Origin: Candidatus Woesearchaeota archaeon CG10_big_fil_rev_8_21_14_0_10_37_12
Lineage (GTDB): Archaea; Nanobdellota; Nanobdellia; Woesearchaeales; ARS49
Assembly: GCA_002762795.1 (NCBI GenBank)
Contig: PCYA01000009.1
Span: forward strand, 125,899 to 176,232
Direction of reading: 5' to 3'
Length of the DNA stretch: 50,334 nt
Part shown: one piece after another, positions 10,482-17,608 of the stretch
Numbering within the stretch: position 1 is the stretch's first letter
Layout of the letters: each line of letters begins with the position of its first letter
Notes under the pieces: generated by a model
What the model was told of the DNA's origin: nothing
Databases searched by the model: none
Seen by the model: only the letters and a program-made list of their open reading frames with translations
Made by a program: the position numbers and the translations under genes

Positions 10482-10582
10482 GTTGTGTATTGCTTTTTAA
10501 TACTATTAAAACTTGTCGTTAGCTTTATAAACCAGCATTTGTGCAAAACTAATATTGCCCCTGTAGGCTAGCTTGGATATCG

Positions 10583-10681
10583 GGGAAATAAACAAAAGCT
10601 CCTGTAGGCTAACTTGGATAGACTGCACGGTTGCGGTCCGTGTGATCGGGGTTCAAATCCCCGCAGGAGCGTTTATTTCCC
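10583..10681 (+). repeat. 11-bp inverted repeat enclosing the inner tRNA-Arg
   Basis: GGGAAATAAAC (10583-10593) is the exact complement of GTTTATTTCCC (10671-10681). Only AAAA separates the left arm from the acceptor stem, and nothing separates the right arm. In RNA this makes an almost continuous 18-bp helix with one bulge, closing the inner tRNA into its own domain within the insertion. Confidence 0.85.
10598..10671 (+). tRNA. tRNA-Arg(GCG), complete, nested inside another tRNA-Arg gene
   Basis: Acceptor GCTCCTG pairs with CAGGAGC; the anticodon arm is CACGG-TTGCGGT-CCGTG with U33 and anticodon GCG (reads CGC/CGU). The variable loop is TGAT, the T-arm is CGGGG-TTCAAAT-CCCCG and the discriminator is G. 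The D-loop has TTGGATA, giving the G18-G19-A20 expected of an arginine tRNA. The D-stem is weak in both tRNAs of the locus. The gene is flanked by an 11-bp inverted repeat (GGGAAATAAAC/GTTTATTTCCC) whose right arm begins at the discriminator base, so a long helix would stack on its acceptor stem. Confidence 0.88.
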
Positions 10682-10684
10682 AGA

Positions 10685-10730
10685 ACTTGAAAACTCATAT
10701 ACAAAAATTTAAAAGTGTGAGTTTTCAAGT
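10685..10730 (+). repeat. 13-bp hairpin abutting the second exon of the outer tRNA-Arg
   Basis: ACTTGAAAACTCA (10685-10697) pairs perfectly with TGAGTTTTCAAGT (10718-10730), with wobble pairs continuing inward. The stem ends exactly at the inferred insertion/exon border (10730/10731). Its loop contains a TATA-like AATTTAAAAG (about 10705-10715), about 20-25 nt before exon 2, so the second half might also have its own promoter. Confidence 0.8.
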
Positions 10731-10816
10731 GACTGTGCGGTTGCGGTCCGTATGACCTGGGTTCAAATCCCAGCAGGGGCGTTTCTTTTTTAAACTCCTA
10801 ATTTATTCTCATAAAT

Positions 10817-11942: not shown

Positions 11943-12140
11943 TTAGTTCAGTTTGTTTTTTGGTGTAGTCTTTAAGATAGGCAGGTGTTCGGTGTTTATT
12001 TGTGGTAGGTATTTTCTGTTAAAGAAACTTGCTCTTGCGTAGCTTGCCACGTTTGGGAAGCCGAACAGTTTTGAGTCGTGAGAGAGTTGCACGTACTCTT
12101 GTTTGGTTAGTCTTATTTTTAGTGTGTGATTTCTTGGCAT
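11943..12140 (-). CDS. MobC/ribbon-helix-helix-like small protein
   Basis: This 65-aa basic protein has the pattern TLKIRLTKQEYVQLSHDSKLFGFPNVASYARASFF, resembling the RHH-type DNA-binding domain of MobC and related plasmid accessory proteins. It lies 4 nt downstream of the HerA-like ATPase gene on the same strand, so they form one operon. The combination of an RHH protein and a DNA-pumping ATPase suggests plasmid or conjugative ancestry. The assignment is by pattern only. Confidence 0.6.
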   Translation of the reverse strand: MPRNHTLKIRLTKQEYVQLSHDSKLFGFPNVASYARASFFNRKYLPQINTEHLPILKTTPKNKLN

Positions 12141-12144
12141 TTTT

Positions 12145-14091
12145 TTAGATTCTTGGAATAATAATTCTCAGATCTTTATGAGGGTAAAGTTGGTGTTTTT
12201 TAAGTTCAGAAAGTATGGTATTGTGTGCTGTTTTGTTTGTTACTGCGATGATAATTTTTCGATTTTCTTGTAAGTGTGTTATGATATGTTTGAACCAGTG
12301 CTTTGATTTTCCTGTTTCTATTTCGATAACGACTTCTTTGTTGACCAGAATATCTGGACGGCATGTTTTGAGTTGTGTTTCTTTTTCAACAGTGTGCCCT
12401 GCTTTTTCTAGTTCTTCAAATATTCGTTGTTGGTAGTATTGATGTTCTGACCCGCAGGACTGGAATATTTCTTGTTGTTGTGTTTGAAGTCTTAAGTAGA
12501 ATGTTCCTTTTTTTGTTGAGTTAAGAAGGTTCTTTTTTCCTTTTTTATCTCTAATCTCGGTTTCTTGTAGTAATTGTTTTTCTATCAATTTTTTCTTTAT
12601 CGTGTTACCTGTGGCATTACTTAGATTACAGTTTTTGTAGTGTTGAATAGTGGTATGGATTGGATTGTTTTGTGTGCTTTGAAGAAACATTATCTCATTT
12701 TCGTTAAGCAATGGATAATCTATCAGTGTTTCTTTTTTAGTTGTTTGTACGTCAAGTTTTCTTCTCTTGTTCATGTGTTCTTTGACGTCATTATCTGTTA
12801 TTTTTCCTTTGTTGACAGGGTAATGTGGTATTTGTATGAGAACGGGTTTTGGCCAGCGTTCCTGTTGCCTCATTACTGCCATTCCAACTGGAAGTTTTGA
12901 GAGGTGTTTTCTTTCTTCGTCGTTAAGTATGACTGCGTTTCCTATGGTGTTGATATCTGAGTGATGTTTTTGGTTAAGCGCGATGGTTGTTGAGGTATTT
13001 GCGAAAGCGACATCGCTTAACTTTGAAGCAAGTTGATCAATAATGATGATACTGGTTCCCAGCTCTCTTTCTTCGCGAAGCAATTTTTCTAGAACTCCCT
13101 CTTCTTCTCCAAGTTTTTTTCTTGGCAACAAATGATGCGCTTCTTCTATAATGAGTACATCTTGCAGTTTTTCTCTGTTTGGATTTGAGAGTTTGTGTTT
13201 GTGCCGATATTCTAACAGTAGTGCTATTAAGAATTTTTTGTCGTGTTGCGATATGGCGTCAACTTCGAAAATTACTTTTTTGTTAAGAAGGTTTTCTAGT
13301 TGTAATAGTTTTTGTGTATTGAGTGCTTTTCCCATTGTTCCAAAATTTAACATTTTGATAGCTCTCATTGTTGACTGCAACCATTGGCTTTCGCGCGATT
13401 TTGTCGTGTATGATTCAAGCCACTGCTGCACGTTTCTAAACGTTGGGTACTTGTCAACAGCTTCTGAGTAAACACCAAAATTTTTATACAAGTTATCAAT
13501 ACATTTAACGAGTAGGCTATGCGCTCCCTCTCCTAAGAAAAATGTTTTGCACAATAATGCAACAACAAGACGTATGTGATTGTGTGGAGAATTTATTGGA
13601 ATGAGTGGATTAAACATATCAAGGTTAGCAACATCCCTGCCTACAGTGTAAATCAACAATTCTTTGTGTTGTTCAAGCAAGTCCCGATAGTTTCTTTTAA
13701 AATCAAATATCCAAAAAGGCTTGTTGTGTTTAATGAGTTGATCTATGAGATGAAAGCAAGCATTTGTTTTTCCAGAACCGCTTCTTCCAACAATTGCAAT
13801 GTGTGACAACCATTCTTTTTCTTGAAGAAAGAAGTCATAGAGTTTCTTATTGCCATAGAGAACAGTTCCAATATTATATGTTCCTTTTTTAGCTACCTGT
13901 TCTGGAGGTGGTGGAAAAAGTACTTGAGTAGTGTAATCTAATTGTATAGTTTCTGTTGCTTTGAGTTGTAAATACTGCAATATTTGCTGTTTTCCTTTTG
14001 CATCTTCTGCAAGAAAAGCAATCCACCAATTTTTACACTCATTCGCGCCAAGTATTGGTTCTAGTTTTCGTAGTAATTCGTTTATTTCCAT
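12145..14091 (-). CDS. HerA/VirD4-type DNA-translocase ATPase with C-terminal nuclease-like domain
   Basis: This P-loop ATPase of the HerA/FtsK/TraG class moves DNA through a hexameric ring. Walker A is GRSGSGKT near residue 110 and Walker B is DVLIIEEAHHLLP near 315. A glutamine-rich basic region follows, then a C-terminal domain with RPDILVNKEVVIEIETGK. That resembles the core of PD-(D/E)xK nuclease folds, although the last catalytic position is shifted. The ATG at 14091 overlaps the stop codon of the upstream gene (ATGGAAATAA), so translation is probably coupled. An in-frame ATG 78 nt upstream would add an implausible basic extension. I favour a conjugation or virus-like element component over the chromosomal HerA-NurA repair pair, because Mre11/Rad50 are absent and recombinases lie nearby. 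Confidence 0.8.
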   Translation of the reverse strand: MEINELLRKLEPILGANECKNWWIAFLAEDAKGKQQILQYLQLKATETIQLDYTTQVLFPPPPEQVAKKGTYNIGTVLYGNKKLYDFFLQEKEWLSHIAIVGRSGSGKTNACFHLIDQLIKHNKPFWIFDFKRNYRDLLEQHKELLIYTVGRDVANLDMFNPLIPINSPHNHIRLVVALLCKTFFLGEGAHSLLVKCIDNLYKNFGVYSEAVDKYPTFRNVQQWLESYTTKSRESQWLQSTMRAIKMLNFGTMGKALNTQKLLQLENLLNKKVIFEVDAISQHDKKFLIALLLEYRHKHKLSNPNREKLQDVLIIEEAHHLLPRKKLGEEEGVLEKLLREERELGTSIIIIDQLASKLSDVAFANTSTTIALNQKHHSDINTIGNAVILNDEERKHLSKLPVGMAVMRQQERWPKPVLIQIPHYPVNKGKITDNDVKEHMNKRRKLDVQTTKKETLIDYPLLNENEIMFLQSTQNNPIHTTIQHYKNCNLSNATGNTIKKKLIEKQLLQETEIRDKKGKKNLLNSTKKGTFYLRLQTQQQEIFQSCGSEHQYYQQRIFEELEKAGHTVEKETQLKTCRPDILVNKEVVIEIETGKSKHWFKHIITHLQENRKIIIAVTNKTAHNTILSELKKHQLYPHKDLRIIIPRI

Positions 14092-14450
14092 TTTGCAAGT
14101 TTTGTTTTTGATTGTTCTTCTAGAATGATTTCTTCGAGCATGAGACGCAATTGCATTTTTTCTTTCCACAATTCAAGCTCAACTTCTCGTCTTTGTTCAG
14201 CAATTTTATCTAGCGCCTGATAAATAGAGTTAGCACGAGAAGTGTCAACAGGGTAACAGAATCTGCGCTGCGTTATCTTCAATAATTGATTGTCCAGTTT
14301 TACTTCTTCAAACAACAAGCATTCAATCTGCTTTTTGTGAAGCTCTTCACGCTCTTCGATTAATCCCTCAATAAATTCTTTCTTATGTGTTGTCTGTTGA
14401 AGTTTTTCTTGCAACCAATTGTTAGCATTTAGACCAATCATGTGACTCAT
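14082..14450 (-). CDS. Coiled-coil accessory protein of the mobile region
   Basis: This is a 122-aa, almost entirely helical protein rich in Glu, Lys and Leu (LIEEREELHKKQIECLLFEE, EQRREVELELWKEKMQLRLMLEE), predicted to form coiled coils. It has no known domain. Its stop codon overlaps the ATPase start, so it is the first gene of a three-gene operon with the HerA-like ATPase and the RHH protein. By analogy it may be an adaptor or stability factor for the ATPase. That is inference from position. Confidence 0.6.
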   Translation of the reverse strand: MSHMIGLNANNWLQEKLQQTTHKKEFIEGLIEEREELHKKQIECLLFEEVKLDNQLLKITQRRFCYPVDTSRANSIYQALDKIAEQRREVELELWKEKMQLRLMLEEIILEEQSKTKLAKWK

Positions 14451-14623
14451 TCAAACAACAAGAATTAATATTCGTATAAGGGTAAACTTACCACCATTTC
14501 TTTTGATGAGATGTACTGGACACTGGACAAGCATGTGCGTAAAACATAATTGTTCACTGACTCAGTTGGTGAAGAGGGGGTAGTTATACTACTATTCCTT
14601 CTACACAAAAAACAAAAAAGAGG

Positions 14624-14637
14624 TTTTTGTGGCCCTC
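14624..14637 (+). repeat. 14-bp direct repeat, left copy
   Basis: TTTTTGTGGCCCTC occurs here and again at 17773-17786 in the same orientation. The two copies bracket the RHH gene, the tyrosine recombinase and the cassette-like units, as attachment sites of an integrated element would. The left copy is also part of a TTTGTGG/CCACAAA hairpin (14626-14650). Confidence 0.45.
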
Positions 14638-14681
14638 AAAAGCCCACAAACATTAAACCATGAAAAATATCAAACTAGAGC

Positions 14682-14912
14682 ATGATCCAACGAAAATACA
14701 CGAGAAGAGAAAACGTCAGCCTACCAGTTGGTCTGCTTCACCAAGTTGACAGAGCAATCGAACAATCAGAACTCTTCACCTCCCGCGCAAGGTTCATAGA
14801 AGAAGCCACCAAACAACAACTATACAAACTATTCCAACTCAAAATAATAATGTACGGAATAAAAAACACAAAAGAAAAAACTGAAGAACAACAAAATCAG
14901 AAAGAGACTTGA
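14682..14912 (+). CDS. CopG-like ribbon-helix-helix protein
   Basis: The 76-aa sequence RRENVSLPVGLLHQVDRAIEQSELFTSRARFIEEATKQQL has the strand-helix-helix spacing of CopG/Arc repressors. One short strand contacts DNA, and F/I positions pack the dimer. A Lys/Glu-rich tail follows. It lies just inside the left 14-bp repeat and convergent to the tyrosine recombinase, so it could control excision or copy number of the element. A GTAG-TTATA-CTAC palindrome about 90 nt upstream is a possible operator. Confidence 0.7.
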   Translation: MIQRKYTRRENVSLPVGLLHQVDRAIEQSELFTSRARFIEEATKQQLYKLFQLKIIMYGIKNTKEKTEEQQNQKET

Positions 14913-14927
14913 CGCCGGACGACGGAG

Positions 14928-16001
14928 TTACTTTATTTTGTCAACAACTTTTTGTAATTCTTCAGTGTTGCAATCGCATATTTCTGTTATTGGTACAAGT
15001 TCTTCACATTTGCATCTTTGAACTTGCATGTTGTTTTCCTTGATGTTGTTAGTTGTTTTTATGTTGTTTAGTTGTAAGATCATGTCATTGGTATCTTTTG
15101 CTGTCATGTGTATGTATACTGATGGCATTTTGCTTTCTGGAACCCATCCCATGTAATTACAAAGTTGATAACCTGTTAGAAAGTGCGATAGGAATGTTCC
15201 TCTTCCATGTCTGAAACTATGCGGGTTAACTTTCTTAGTGAGTCCTGATTTTTTTGCAGTTTTTTGCAGTAGTTCGTATAATCTTTGGTGCGATATTTGT
15301 TTTTTCAGTTTTCCTTTTGTGTTTATCCAGACTGGAGAATCTGGTTTATCTTTGAGTGGGTGTTCTTGAAACCATTTTTTTAAGTAATATGTAGAATATA
15401 CTACTCGTACTGGTCTGAAACCAGTTTTTCCTTGCACGTTAAGTAATGCTCCGTTTTTATCAAAGCTTACATGTCTTATGGCAAGGTTTCCTATTTCTCC
15501 TATTCTGCAACCAGACTCTCCCAAACAAGCAATGAATGCTTTATCACGAATACTTTTAGCAGTTGTAACAAGAGTTACTATGTCGTCTGCTGTTGGAAAC
15601 TCATTAGGCATTCTTCTTGGCGATTTATTTTTTGAGATACTGATGTTTATCCAACTTACGATTTCAGGATATTCTTTTGTATTTCCGTAAAGCCATTTGA
15701 AAAAAAGTTTGATTATTACTTTATATGATTGAACAGTCCAAGGCGAATACTGTTTACAAGATAGTTGCTCAAGAATTTTTTCAATATCTTGCCTCTCAAC
15801 AATTTCAAAGTCTTTCCCTAACAATTCACTTAATTGTTTCAAATAACACAAATACTTAATCACTCTTGGTTTTGAGATTCCATTAGCTAAAGAAAACCTA
15901 GCAAATGATTGGATATGTTTTTTATTACTTTCACAAATATTGCTTTCTTCCAAAAGTATAAACGAACGTTCCAACTTTCTATCATACTTATGAATATCAA
16001 G
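14928..16001 (-). CDS. Tyrosine recombinase (integrase)
   Basis: This is a DNA breakage-rejoining enzyme of the phage integrase/XerA type (357 aa from the chosen start). An N-terminal SAM-like core-binding domain covers about 10-110. The catalytic set is complete: R167 (GCRIGE), K193, H262 and R265 (PHSFRH), W287, and the nucleophile Y297 (SVYIHM). A TATA box (CTATAAAC, about 16026-16033) sits 25-28 nt before the ATG at 16001, which favours a leaderless start there and rejects a 46-residue extension into repeat DNA. The gene points away from the cassette-like units whose first core lies 76 nt upstream, the same relation as intI and attI in integrons. I do not see the extra segment before the HxxR box that defines IntI. 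Confidence 0.9.
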   Translation of the reverse strand, partial: LDIHKYDRKLERSFILLEESNICESNKKHIQSFARFSLANGISKPRVIKYLCYLKQLSELLGKDFEIVERQDIEKILEQLSCKQYSPWTVQSYKVIIKLFFKWLYGNTKEYPEIVSWINISISKNKSPRRMPNEFPTADDIVTLVTTAKSIRDKAFIACLGESGCRIGEIGNLAIRHVSFDKNGALLNVQGKTGFRPVRVVYSTYYLKKWFQEHPLKDKPDSPVWINTKGKLKKQISHQRLYELLQKTAKKSGLTKKVNPHSFRHGRGTFLSHFLTGYQLCNYMGWVPESKMPSVYIHMTAKDTNDMILQLNNIKTTNNIKENNMQVQRCKCEELVPITEICDCNTEELQKVVDKIK

Positions 16002-16040
16002 CATACACTCAAAAGAGCAAATCAAGTTTATAGTGCTTGC

Positions 16041-16126
16041 AGTACTCAACGGGCCACAAAAAGAAAACAATTTGATGTTGGGCGACGGCATTACTGCGTT
16101 GGTAGCAGAGTGTTTCAGGGTATTCG
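16041..16126. other. attI-like site: core copy 1 with conserved leader
   Basis: GTTGGGCGACG starts at 16077, and 48 nt from 16079 to 16126 are identical at 47 positions to 16847-16894. An AGTACTCAAC element lies 26 nt before the core. The sequence left of the core is unrelated to that of the other copies except for this element. A hairpin GAGTGTTTCAG/CTGAATCACTC (one mismatch, about 16109-16142) lies within and after the conserved block. Confidence 0.6.
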
Positions 16127-16227
16127 CAGACTGAATCACTCTTCGCTATGTGTGAATGGAAGGGTATTCAGAGGGATTCTGTGAATGCCAAGGAAGATTA
16201 ATAAGGTGAGTTGAATCGCTTAGGAGT

Positions 16228-16800: not shown

Positions 16801-16894
16801 TCTTAAGTACAATCCTGCGTCTTATTCAATACTCAACCTTGAATGCTGGGCGACGGCATTGCTGCGTTGGTAGCAGAGTGTTTCAGGGTATTCG
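16801..16894. other. attC-like site: unit 1 tail plus core copy 2
   Basis: The tail contains TTAAGTAC (16803-16810) and AATACTCAAC (16828-16837), an imperfect inverted repeat. ATTCAA and TTGAAT lie around the second arm, and the core GCTGGGCGACGG starts at 16845. The first base pair triplet GCT differs from GTT in copies 1 and 3. From 16847 the 48-nt block matches copy 1 at 47 positions. Confidence 0.6.
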
Positions 16895-16995
16895 TACACT
16901 GAATAACTAGCAGTTATGCGTGACTGGCATGTTATTCAATGGTATTCGCGAAAAGCCAAGAAAAGCTAATAAACTCCAATGGGTACAACTTAACT

Positions 16996-17274
16996 ATGAC
17001 CGAGCTTGATGTTGCTAAGTTAAGGACAGCTTTGATTGAGCTATACGAACAATATGCTAAAAATCCAGTCGATTCTGCAATGAAAAACAGAGCAATACAA
17101 TTACATTTGGATTATGTTTGGGCAAATCCAGTTCTGAGCGAAGTCATGTGTCGTGCTGTGAATTGGCTCGTTGAACTGGTAAGGGATACTGACTCTGAGA
17201 GACCAACTAAAGAGGGTGTTATGACTCTTATTTCTGAGTTAAGACAAGAAGAAAAAGCAGAGAATACGCCCTGA
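16996..17274 (+). CDS. Cassette unit 2 helical protein (92 aa)
   Basis: This is a paralog of the unit 1 forward protein: TELDVAKLRTALIELYEQY aligns with DNLDVKQICKELAELLNEA, and DYVWANPVLSEVM aligns with EQYWDARPVLPKIV. By eye roughly a quarter to a third of positions agree. It is all-helical and soluble, with no known domain. I chose the ATG at 16996 because it aligns with the unit 1 start and keeps the same distance (about 30 nt) from a CTAATAAAC TATA-like box. An upstream in-frame ATG at 16939 would run into the conserved non-coding border. Confidence 0.6.
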   Translation: MTELDVAKLRTALIELYEQYAKNPVDSAMKNRAIQLHLDYVWANPVLSEVMCRAVNWLVELVRDTDSERPTKEGVMTLISELRQEEKAENTP

Positions 17275-17317
17275 CGCGAGACGTCTTCTCGTAGTCTGCT
17301 TATTGTGCGGTGAGCGA

Positions 17318-17608
17318 CTACTTACTCGTCCGGTCTTTGCCCTGCAAGCCGAGTTGCTTGGCGTGATAGTCAACCAGAGCAGCTTCGTAGCCGTTCAACT
17401 TGTGAAGAATTTCATCACTGCCAATAGCCTTGACAGTGCCACCGGAAACAGCGTTGCCGGACTTGTCGCTGTGAATGTGAACTGACGCTCCGGAAGCATT
17501 GAGATCGTAGAGAGTCAGTTTGCGACGATCTTCTGCAATCTTCATCTTTTCGATGTGTTCAGCAGGACACCACCCGTCGCACCACAGACCATGTTTCGGA
17601 CAACTCAT
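17318..17608 (-). CDS. Cassette unit 2 CPxHG small protein (96 aa)
   Basis: It starts MSCPKHGLWCDGWCPAEH, giving CPxHG plus two further cysteines, like the unit 1 counterpart; the rest is different. The C-terminal half holds SGASVHIHSDKSGNAVSGG, a likely beta hairpin, and a helical DEILHKLNGYEAALVDYHAKQLG. GC content and codon choice are higher than in host genes. It converges on the helical gene with a 43-nt gap. The shared knuckle on different bodies suggests swapping of the C-terminal part. Function unknown. Confidence 0.6.
   Translation of the reverse strand: MSCPKHGLWCDGWCPAEHIEKMKIAEDRRKLTLYDLNASGASVHIHSDKSGNAVSGGTVKAIGSDEILHKLNGYEAALVDYHAKQLGLQGKDRTSK

Follow-up and report, generated by a model that had tools for sequence, protein, structure and literature searches.

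Short hairpin repeats have spread in mitochondria and plastids (PMC4478555, PMC2800124, PMC2670323), and in the organelles of Volvox palindromes are found inserted within one another, some of the composites folding like a transfer RNA (tRNA). In archaea the origin of disrupted tRNA genes is an open question of tRNA evolution, and mobile elements were proposed as the cause of the disruption of tRNA-Thr(GGU) in Caldiarchaeum (PMC3293823). The locus considered here lies in a stretch of 50,334 nucleotides (the window) of contig PCYA01000009.1 from Candidatus Woesearchaeota archaeon CG10_big_fil_rev_8_21_14_0_10_37_12, and is a tRNA-Arg(GCG) gene whose D-loop is interrupted by an insertion of 151 nt containing a second, complete tRNA-Arg(GCG). 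The initial annotation, which pointed it out, knew of no described tRNA-in-tRNA gene, and a literature search covering few subscription papers likewise found no tRNA nested in another.

The nested locus is real, recurrent and unusual. Few genes are as constrained as those for tRNAs; in this family of tiny groundwater archaea many of them nevertheless have hairpin insertions or duplicated 3' or 5' ends, and some have what appears to be a complete working copy nested in an older one. The favoured explanation, to which a probability of about 0.62 is given, is that a two-hairpin element interrupted an ancestral tRNA-Arg(GCG) gene and that the inner copy carried by it replaced the outer one, the outer gene being probably, but not certainly, dead. 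A gene with two products is possible, and less likely than the replacement of an interrupted gene.

Anatomy of the nested locus

The genome holding the window, G000, is a draft assembly of 1.35 Mb in 19 contigs, and the locus sits within a 178-kb contig. The family set compared comprised 26 Woesearchaeota genomes (the other G numbers are relatives of the same family) and an order-wide pattern scan covered 353 genomes; the sequence covered was most of G013 (about 85%) and parts of G000, G005, G006, G007 and G023. In the window the order is TTTATAAACC, 23 nt of tRNA-Arg, the 151-nt insertion, the last 51 nt of the tRNA and a run of T, with the following features:

10523..10533, + strand: TATA-box-like promoter CTTTATAAACC, predicted from the sequence, about 29 nt 5' of the outer 5' piece
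10557..10579, + strand: 5' piece of the outer tRNA-Arg(GCG), positions 1-21, to A21
10580..10593, + strand: 5' arm of stem 1 of the hairpin element, TC-G-GGGAAATAAAC (from the fold)
10598..10671, + strand: inner tRNA-Arg(GCG), complete and intact
10671..10684, + strand: 3' arm of stem 1, GTTTATTTCCC-A-GA (from the fold)
10685..10730, + strand: stem 2 of the element, ACTTGAAAACTCATAT / GTGTGAGTTTTCAAGT, 16 bp, adjoining the outer 3' piece
10731..10781, + strand: 3' piece of the outer tRNA-Arg(GCG), positions 22-73
10782..10792, + strand: T-rich run TTTCTTTTTTA 3' of the outer 3' piece, a likely terminator

The insertion point is at 21/22 of the D-loop, and the 151 nt fold as two adjoining helices, a point missed by the initial annotation. 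Stem 1 (GGGAAATAAAC/GTTTATTTCCC, 11 bp) encloses the inner tRNA-Arg, and the first G of its 3' arm doubles as the discriminator base of this tRNA; the basal arms of stem 2, ACTTGAAAAC/GTTTTCAAGT, are the same as those enclosing an intact tRNA-Ser(CGA) elsewhere in G000 (ACTTGAAAAC...GTTTTCAAGT). Signatures similar to that of the insertion, TC...GA and then ACTYG...CRMGT, are found at other interrupted tRNAs. The only TATA-like box of the locus is 5' of the outer piece, none preceding the inner tRNA, and G007, G013 and G023 have comparable boxes before their outer 5' pieces; because of the position of this single box, co-transcription of the outer and inner genes appears likely.

The outer pieces of 23 and 51 nt rejoin as a 74-nt tRNA with no gap and no excess base, with coordinates and sequence exactly as first claimed. 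The joined molecule has intact acceptor (7/7), anticodon-stem (5/5) and T-stem (5/5) pairs and is identical to the inner one at 65/74 positions; both are recognised by ARAGORN as tRNA-Arg(GCG), and the covariance model of Rfam gives 50.3 bits to the inner tRNA and a partial match of 24.8 bits to the outer 3' piece. All 9 differences preserve pairing, the changed pairs (inner/outer) being 3-70 TA/CG, 27-43 CG/TA, 28-42 AT/GT, 50-64 GC/TA and the Levitt pair 15-48 AT/GC; among them only 3-70 and 15-48 bridge the insertion, and their pairing across it, already noted in the initial annotation, is borne out. As far as sequence goes, these paired differences show that both molecules were once functional tRNAs; they neither date the insertion nor prove that the outer tRNA was functional afterwards, so that the argument previously drawn from them against a dead fragment is weak. 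In comparison with relatives, the inner sequence is closest to those of G004 and G019 (6 differences) and the outer is about equally close to several (8-10 differences), the order of the two not being resolved by 74 nt.

The nested Arg locus was picked out by a structural finder, and a closely similar one, set to require acceptor 7/7, T-stem 5/5 and a well-formed anticodon arm, had 0 matches on 1.8 Mb of shuffled sequence; this result, together with the recurrence in relatives, rules out a chance origin of the nesting. The draft state of the genome, in 19 contigs, could suggest an assembly artefact or a chimaeric contig, but such an origin is hardly credible for a locus interior to a 178-kb contig, whose two copies differ by 9 pair-preserving changes and whose arrangement recurs in other genomes and at other loop positions; misassembly was rejected on the recurrence in relatives and at the Ser locus of G000.

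Recurrence in the family and related hairpin repeats

Nested tRNAs of the same isoacceptor are present in 5 of the 26 family genomes (G000, G005, G007, G013 and G023), related genomes being where the initial annotation had proposed to look for the same arrangement. They are Arg-GCG in the D-loop of G000, G007 and G023, Arg-CCG in G013 (D-loop) and G005 (T-loop), Ser-GCT in G005 (T-loop, with the tRNA in the second hairpin) and Ser-CGA at a second, messier nested locus of G000. The anticodon of the inner tRNA is that of the outer one in every nested case; at the Arg sites both hairpins are recognisable, and across the nested sites the tRNA can be in either hairpin. The order scan, based on a pair of Arg(GCG/CCG) anticodon loops separated by 66-96 nt, matched 4 family members, to which G000 (gap 100) was added to give five; one further match outside the family was judged to be due to chance, because a reversed-pattern control had a few matches as well. 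The exact sequence of the nested junction had no match in a scan of named genomes.

The Ser locus of G000 (L077, oriented 16840-17420, contig C10, - strand) consists of two dead tRNA-Ser copies, broken by hairpin insertions in the T-loop and the variable arm and with unpaired ends, and of the intact tRNA-Ser(CGA). The inner tRNA is intact in every nested case. Damage is seen in the outer copies of G007 (acceptor 6/7, T-stem 3/5), of G023 (T-stem 4/5), of the Ser locus of G005 (T-stem 4/5) and of G013, whose anticodon arm is broken, the last two being rejected by ARAGORN.

Judging by the neighbouring genes, G007, G023 and probably G000 have their nested Arg locus at the position that a plain tRNA-Arg(GCG) gene occupies in G004, G011, G012, G014, G022 and G024; most likely, therefore, the outer gene was there first and the inner one arrived later. 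At the Arg(GCG) locus G019 has a duplicated 5' piece with a hairpin that has no counterpart in its plain congener G004, which suggests that at least one change of this kind is recent; the genus of G000 is represented by one genome in the set.

Related two-hairpin repeats, detected by a script and by a covariance model, occur in other tRNA genes, whose D-, T- or variable loops they interrupt, as well as outside tRNA genes, in many dispersed copies. Matches of the model R1 in G000, G007 and G013 were read in their contexts, the weaker ones having only the fold in common. Some elements outside tRNA genes lie between mutually pairing flanks, as though placed in the loop of a hairpin (L189, L165), and the two-hairpin element is also found within composite hairpin repeats. 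Composite intergenic repeats with several nested hairpins were observed in G007 (L209, L212, L218) and G013 (L219, L221); they have the modules GAGCACA and GGAATTCCACC in common and several are present in more than one copy.

For many tRNA genes in G005, G007, G013 and G023 the 3' end (T-loop to end) is repeated once or more, 50-250 nt downstream, and the intervening DNA contains hairpins, often with an antisense T-arm (GGATTTGAAC); a few tRNA genes of the same genomes have a 5'-end copy upstream. At L091:3853-3969 of G021 there are two tandem 5' pieces of tRNA-Arg, of which only the upstream one (GTCCCCG) pairs 7/7 with the 3' end (CGGGGAC) and may be the functional one. A separate observation concerns class II tRNAs, with a long variable arm, a GAA anticodon (reading Phe codons) and discriminator G, at L132:9666-9785 of G013, L159:4583 and L162:19725 of G023 and L026 of G000; their identity is unclear, and those of G013 and G023 also have T-loop introns.

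Fate of the outer tRNA

According to the favoured explanation, a two-hairpin repeat element of mobile type, inserting into a hairpin loop, would have interrupted the ancestral tRNA-Arg(GCG) gene in the D-loop (21/22), the first hairpin of the element bearing a full copy of tRNA-Arg(GCG) in its loop. Transcription would begin at the outer promoter, ordinary 5' and 3' end processing would cut free the inner tRNA, which would serve as the working molecule, and the outer halves would be thrown away and decay. The same-isoacceptor copy may have entered by local copying (template switching or RNA-mediated insertion), with selection acting as a filter, an insertion that kills an essential tRNA persisting only when a replacement comes along. 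Local copying filtered in this way would account for the constant agreement of inner and outer isoacceptors.

The initial annotation had instead proposed that one transcript could give two arginine tRNAs; in this reading the outer tRNA is functional and the insertion is an intron at 21/22, taken out by the splicing endonuclease or some unknown activity, with two tRNA-Arg(GCG) as products. All stems of the outer tRNA are indeed intact, its 9 differences keep pairing, with two changed pairs bridging the insertion, a promoter lies upstream and a T-run downstream, the compact fold of the insertion brings the splice points side by side, and T-loop introns of the bulge-helix-bulge (BHB) type are frequent in the family. 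This proposal is nevertheless unlikely: the inner tRNA already provides the same anticodon, most outer genes at the other nested loci are damaged, the insertion belongs to a hairpin repeat found also outside tRNA genes, and the splice motif is incomplete, as the initial annotation had correctly cautioned. In particular, the central helix at the G000 Arg site has 3/4 pairs at best and H' 1 bp, for which a classical BHB intron at 21/22 was rejected, and no complete BHB was found at 8 nested or two-hairpin sites, while 9 T-loop introns taken for comparison have 4/4 central pairs plus the T-stem. Across six genomes a 4/4 central splice helix is present in 14/16 interrupted T-loops that have no intact tRNA within 450 nt versus 7/39 that have one (Fisher p = 2e-6), although the latter class is mostly made of duplicated 3' ends, which makes the contrast indirect for nested genes. 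The splicing endonuclease of G000 is encoded by a single EndA gene of 174 aa, a length suggesting an alpha4-like enzyme, and relaxed BHB introns are efficiently removed only by (alpha-beta)2 and epsilon2 enzymes (reviewed in PMC6379350). Of the idea of one transcript with two arginine tRNAs, the nesting stands as real and recurrent and co-transcription as likely; splicing of the outer tRNA is not, or at best weakly, supported. Were the outer tRNA made, the locus would to our knowledge have no precedent as a tRNA-in-tRNA gene, and a new route of RNA processing would be at work. A broader proposal is rather improbable: the inner tRNA would serve as intron of the outer one, and the two-hairpin insertion would represent a new class of archaeal introns that do without a BHB and host tRNA genes in their hairpins.

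Besides the indirectness of the T-loop contrast, several points weigh against replacement. The outer tRNAs of G000 and of the Arg locus of G005 keep all acceptor, T and anticodon pairs; with the gene intact in G000, its sequence is compatible both with a recent insertion and with a real function. In the RNA the outer halves would be kept close by the stem that encloses each inner tRNA, something that a functional intron might also do, and a non-BHB processing route for the outer tRNA is possible. Moreover, the elements outside tRNA genes share a common fold and short motifs and no long identity, so that their common descent with those in tRNA loops is likely, not proven; no transposase was identified, mobility being deduced solely from dispersion.

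The nested genes could also be scars of integrase-type elements, in which recombination at T- or D-arms would restore an intact tRNA and leave a partial copy with a minimal element. Archaeal tyrosine recombinases, which rebuild the tRNA that they target, are able to act at its T arm or its 5' half (PMC8371274), an integrase gene is present at 14931-16139 of the window, and the 3'-end copies 50-250 nt downstream and 5'-end copies upstream of many family tRNA genes fit such an origin. Integration, however, duplicates the core, and the outer pieces of the nested Arg genes of G000 (1-21 and 22-73) and G005 sum to one tRNA with no overlap; the elements, of about 50-200 nt, have no room for genes, and similar hairpins accompany different tRNAs, in each case together with the 3' end of the tRNA in question, so that a fixed attP cannot explain them. 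Such scars are accordingly quite unlikely.

As for the surroundings of this integrase gene, window 11946-16139 (- strand) encodes it, of phage type, with a NikA-like small protein (a weak match, under the Pfam cut-off) and a HerA/TraG-like ATPase; this region, at 1.2-5.4 kb downstream from the nested tRNA, is probably a mobilisable element that has integrated. Two further observations regard introns in relatives. Perfect-BHB T-loop introns (TTCA/TGAA) are present in the initiator Met, Lys(TTT) and several other tRNAs (L193:13775-13880 and L131:362-475 in G013, - strand; also L070, L071 and L069 in G006). In genus g7, which has few detectable tRNAs, two-hairpin insertions had been expected in essential tRNAs; this expectation failed, the interrupted tRNAs without an intact neighbour carrying ordinary BHB-type T-loop introns.

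Comparison with known systems

The repeats of the G000 family resemble the double-hairpin elements or GC clusters of fungal mitochondria, the hairpin repeats of sponge mitochondrial DNA and the Volvox palindromes, as all are short, dispersed and made of one or two hairpins, and occur both in structural RNA genes and in intergenic DNA. Unlike organelle repeats, they are located in an archaeal chromosome, in the D-, T- and variable loops of tRNAs, and can carry a whole tRNA gene; organelle-type hairpin repeats are here found in the loops of chromosomal RNA genes. Like archaeal non-canonical BHB introns, the nested insertions interrupt tRNA D- and T-loops, and true BHB T-loop introns exist in the same family (initiator Met and Lys(TTT) of G013); unlike them, the insertions lack a complete BHB, are of greater size and enclose a whole tRNA.

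As in tyrosine-recombinase integration (PMC8371274), an intact tRNA stays with a partial tRNA copy nearby, but here a full tRNA lies between two complementary pieces of the outer gene, and the element itself is tiny. The series from intact to dead outer genes offers material on the disruption and replacement of tRNA genes and perhaps on intron-containing or split ones. With split, tri-split and permuted tRNAs, and with tRNA-Thr(GGU) of Caldiarchaeum, the locus has in common tRNA pieces set apart in the DNA and mobile DNA as the proposed cause; in contrast to split and permuted genes, its outer pieces are in normal order, in cis on the same strand, apparently under one promoter-like box, and enclose a second complete tRNA.
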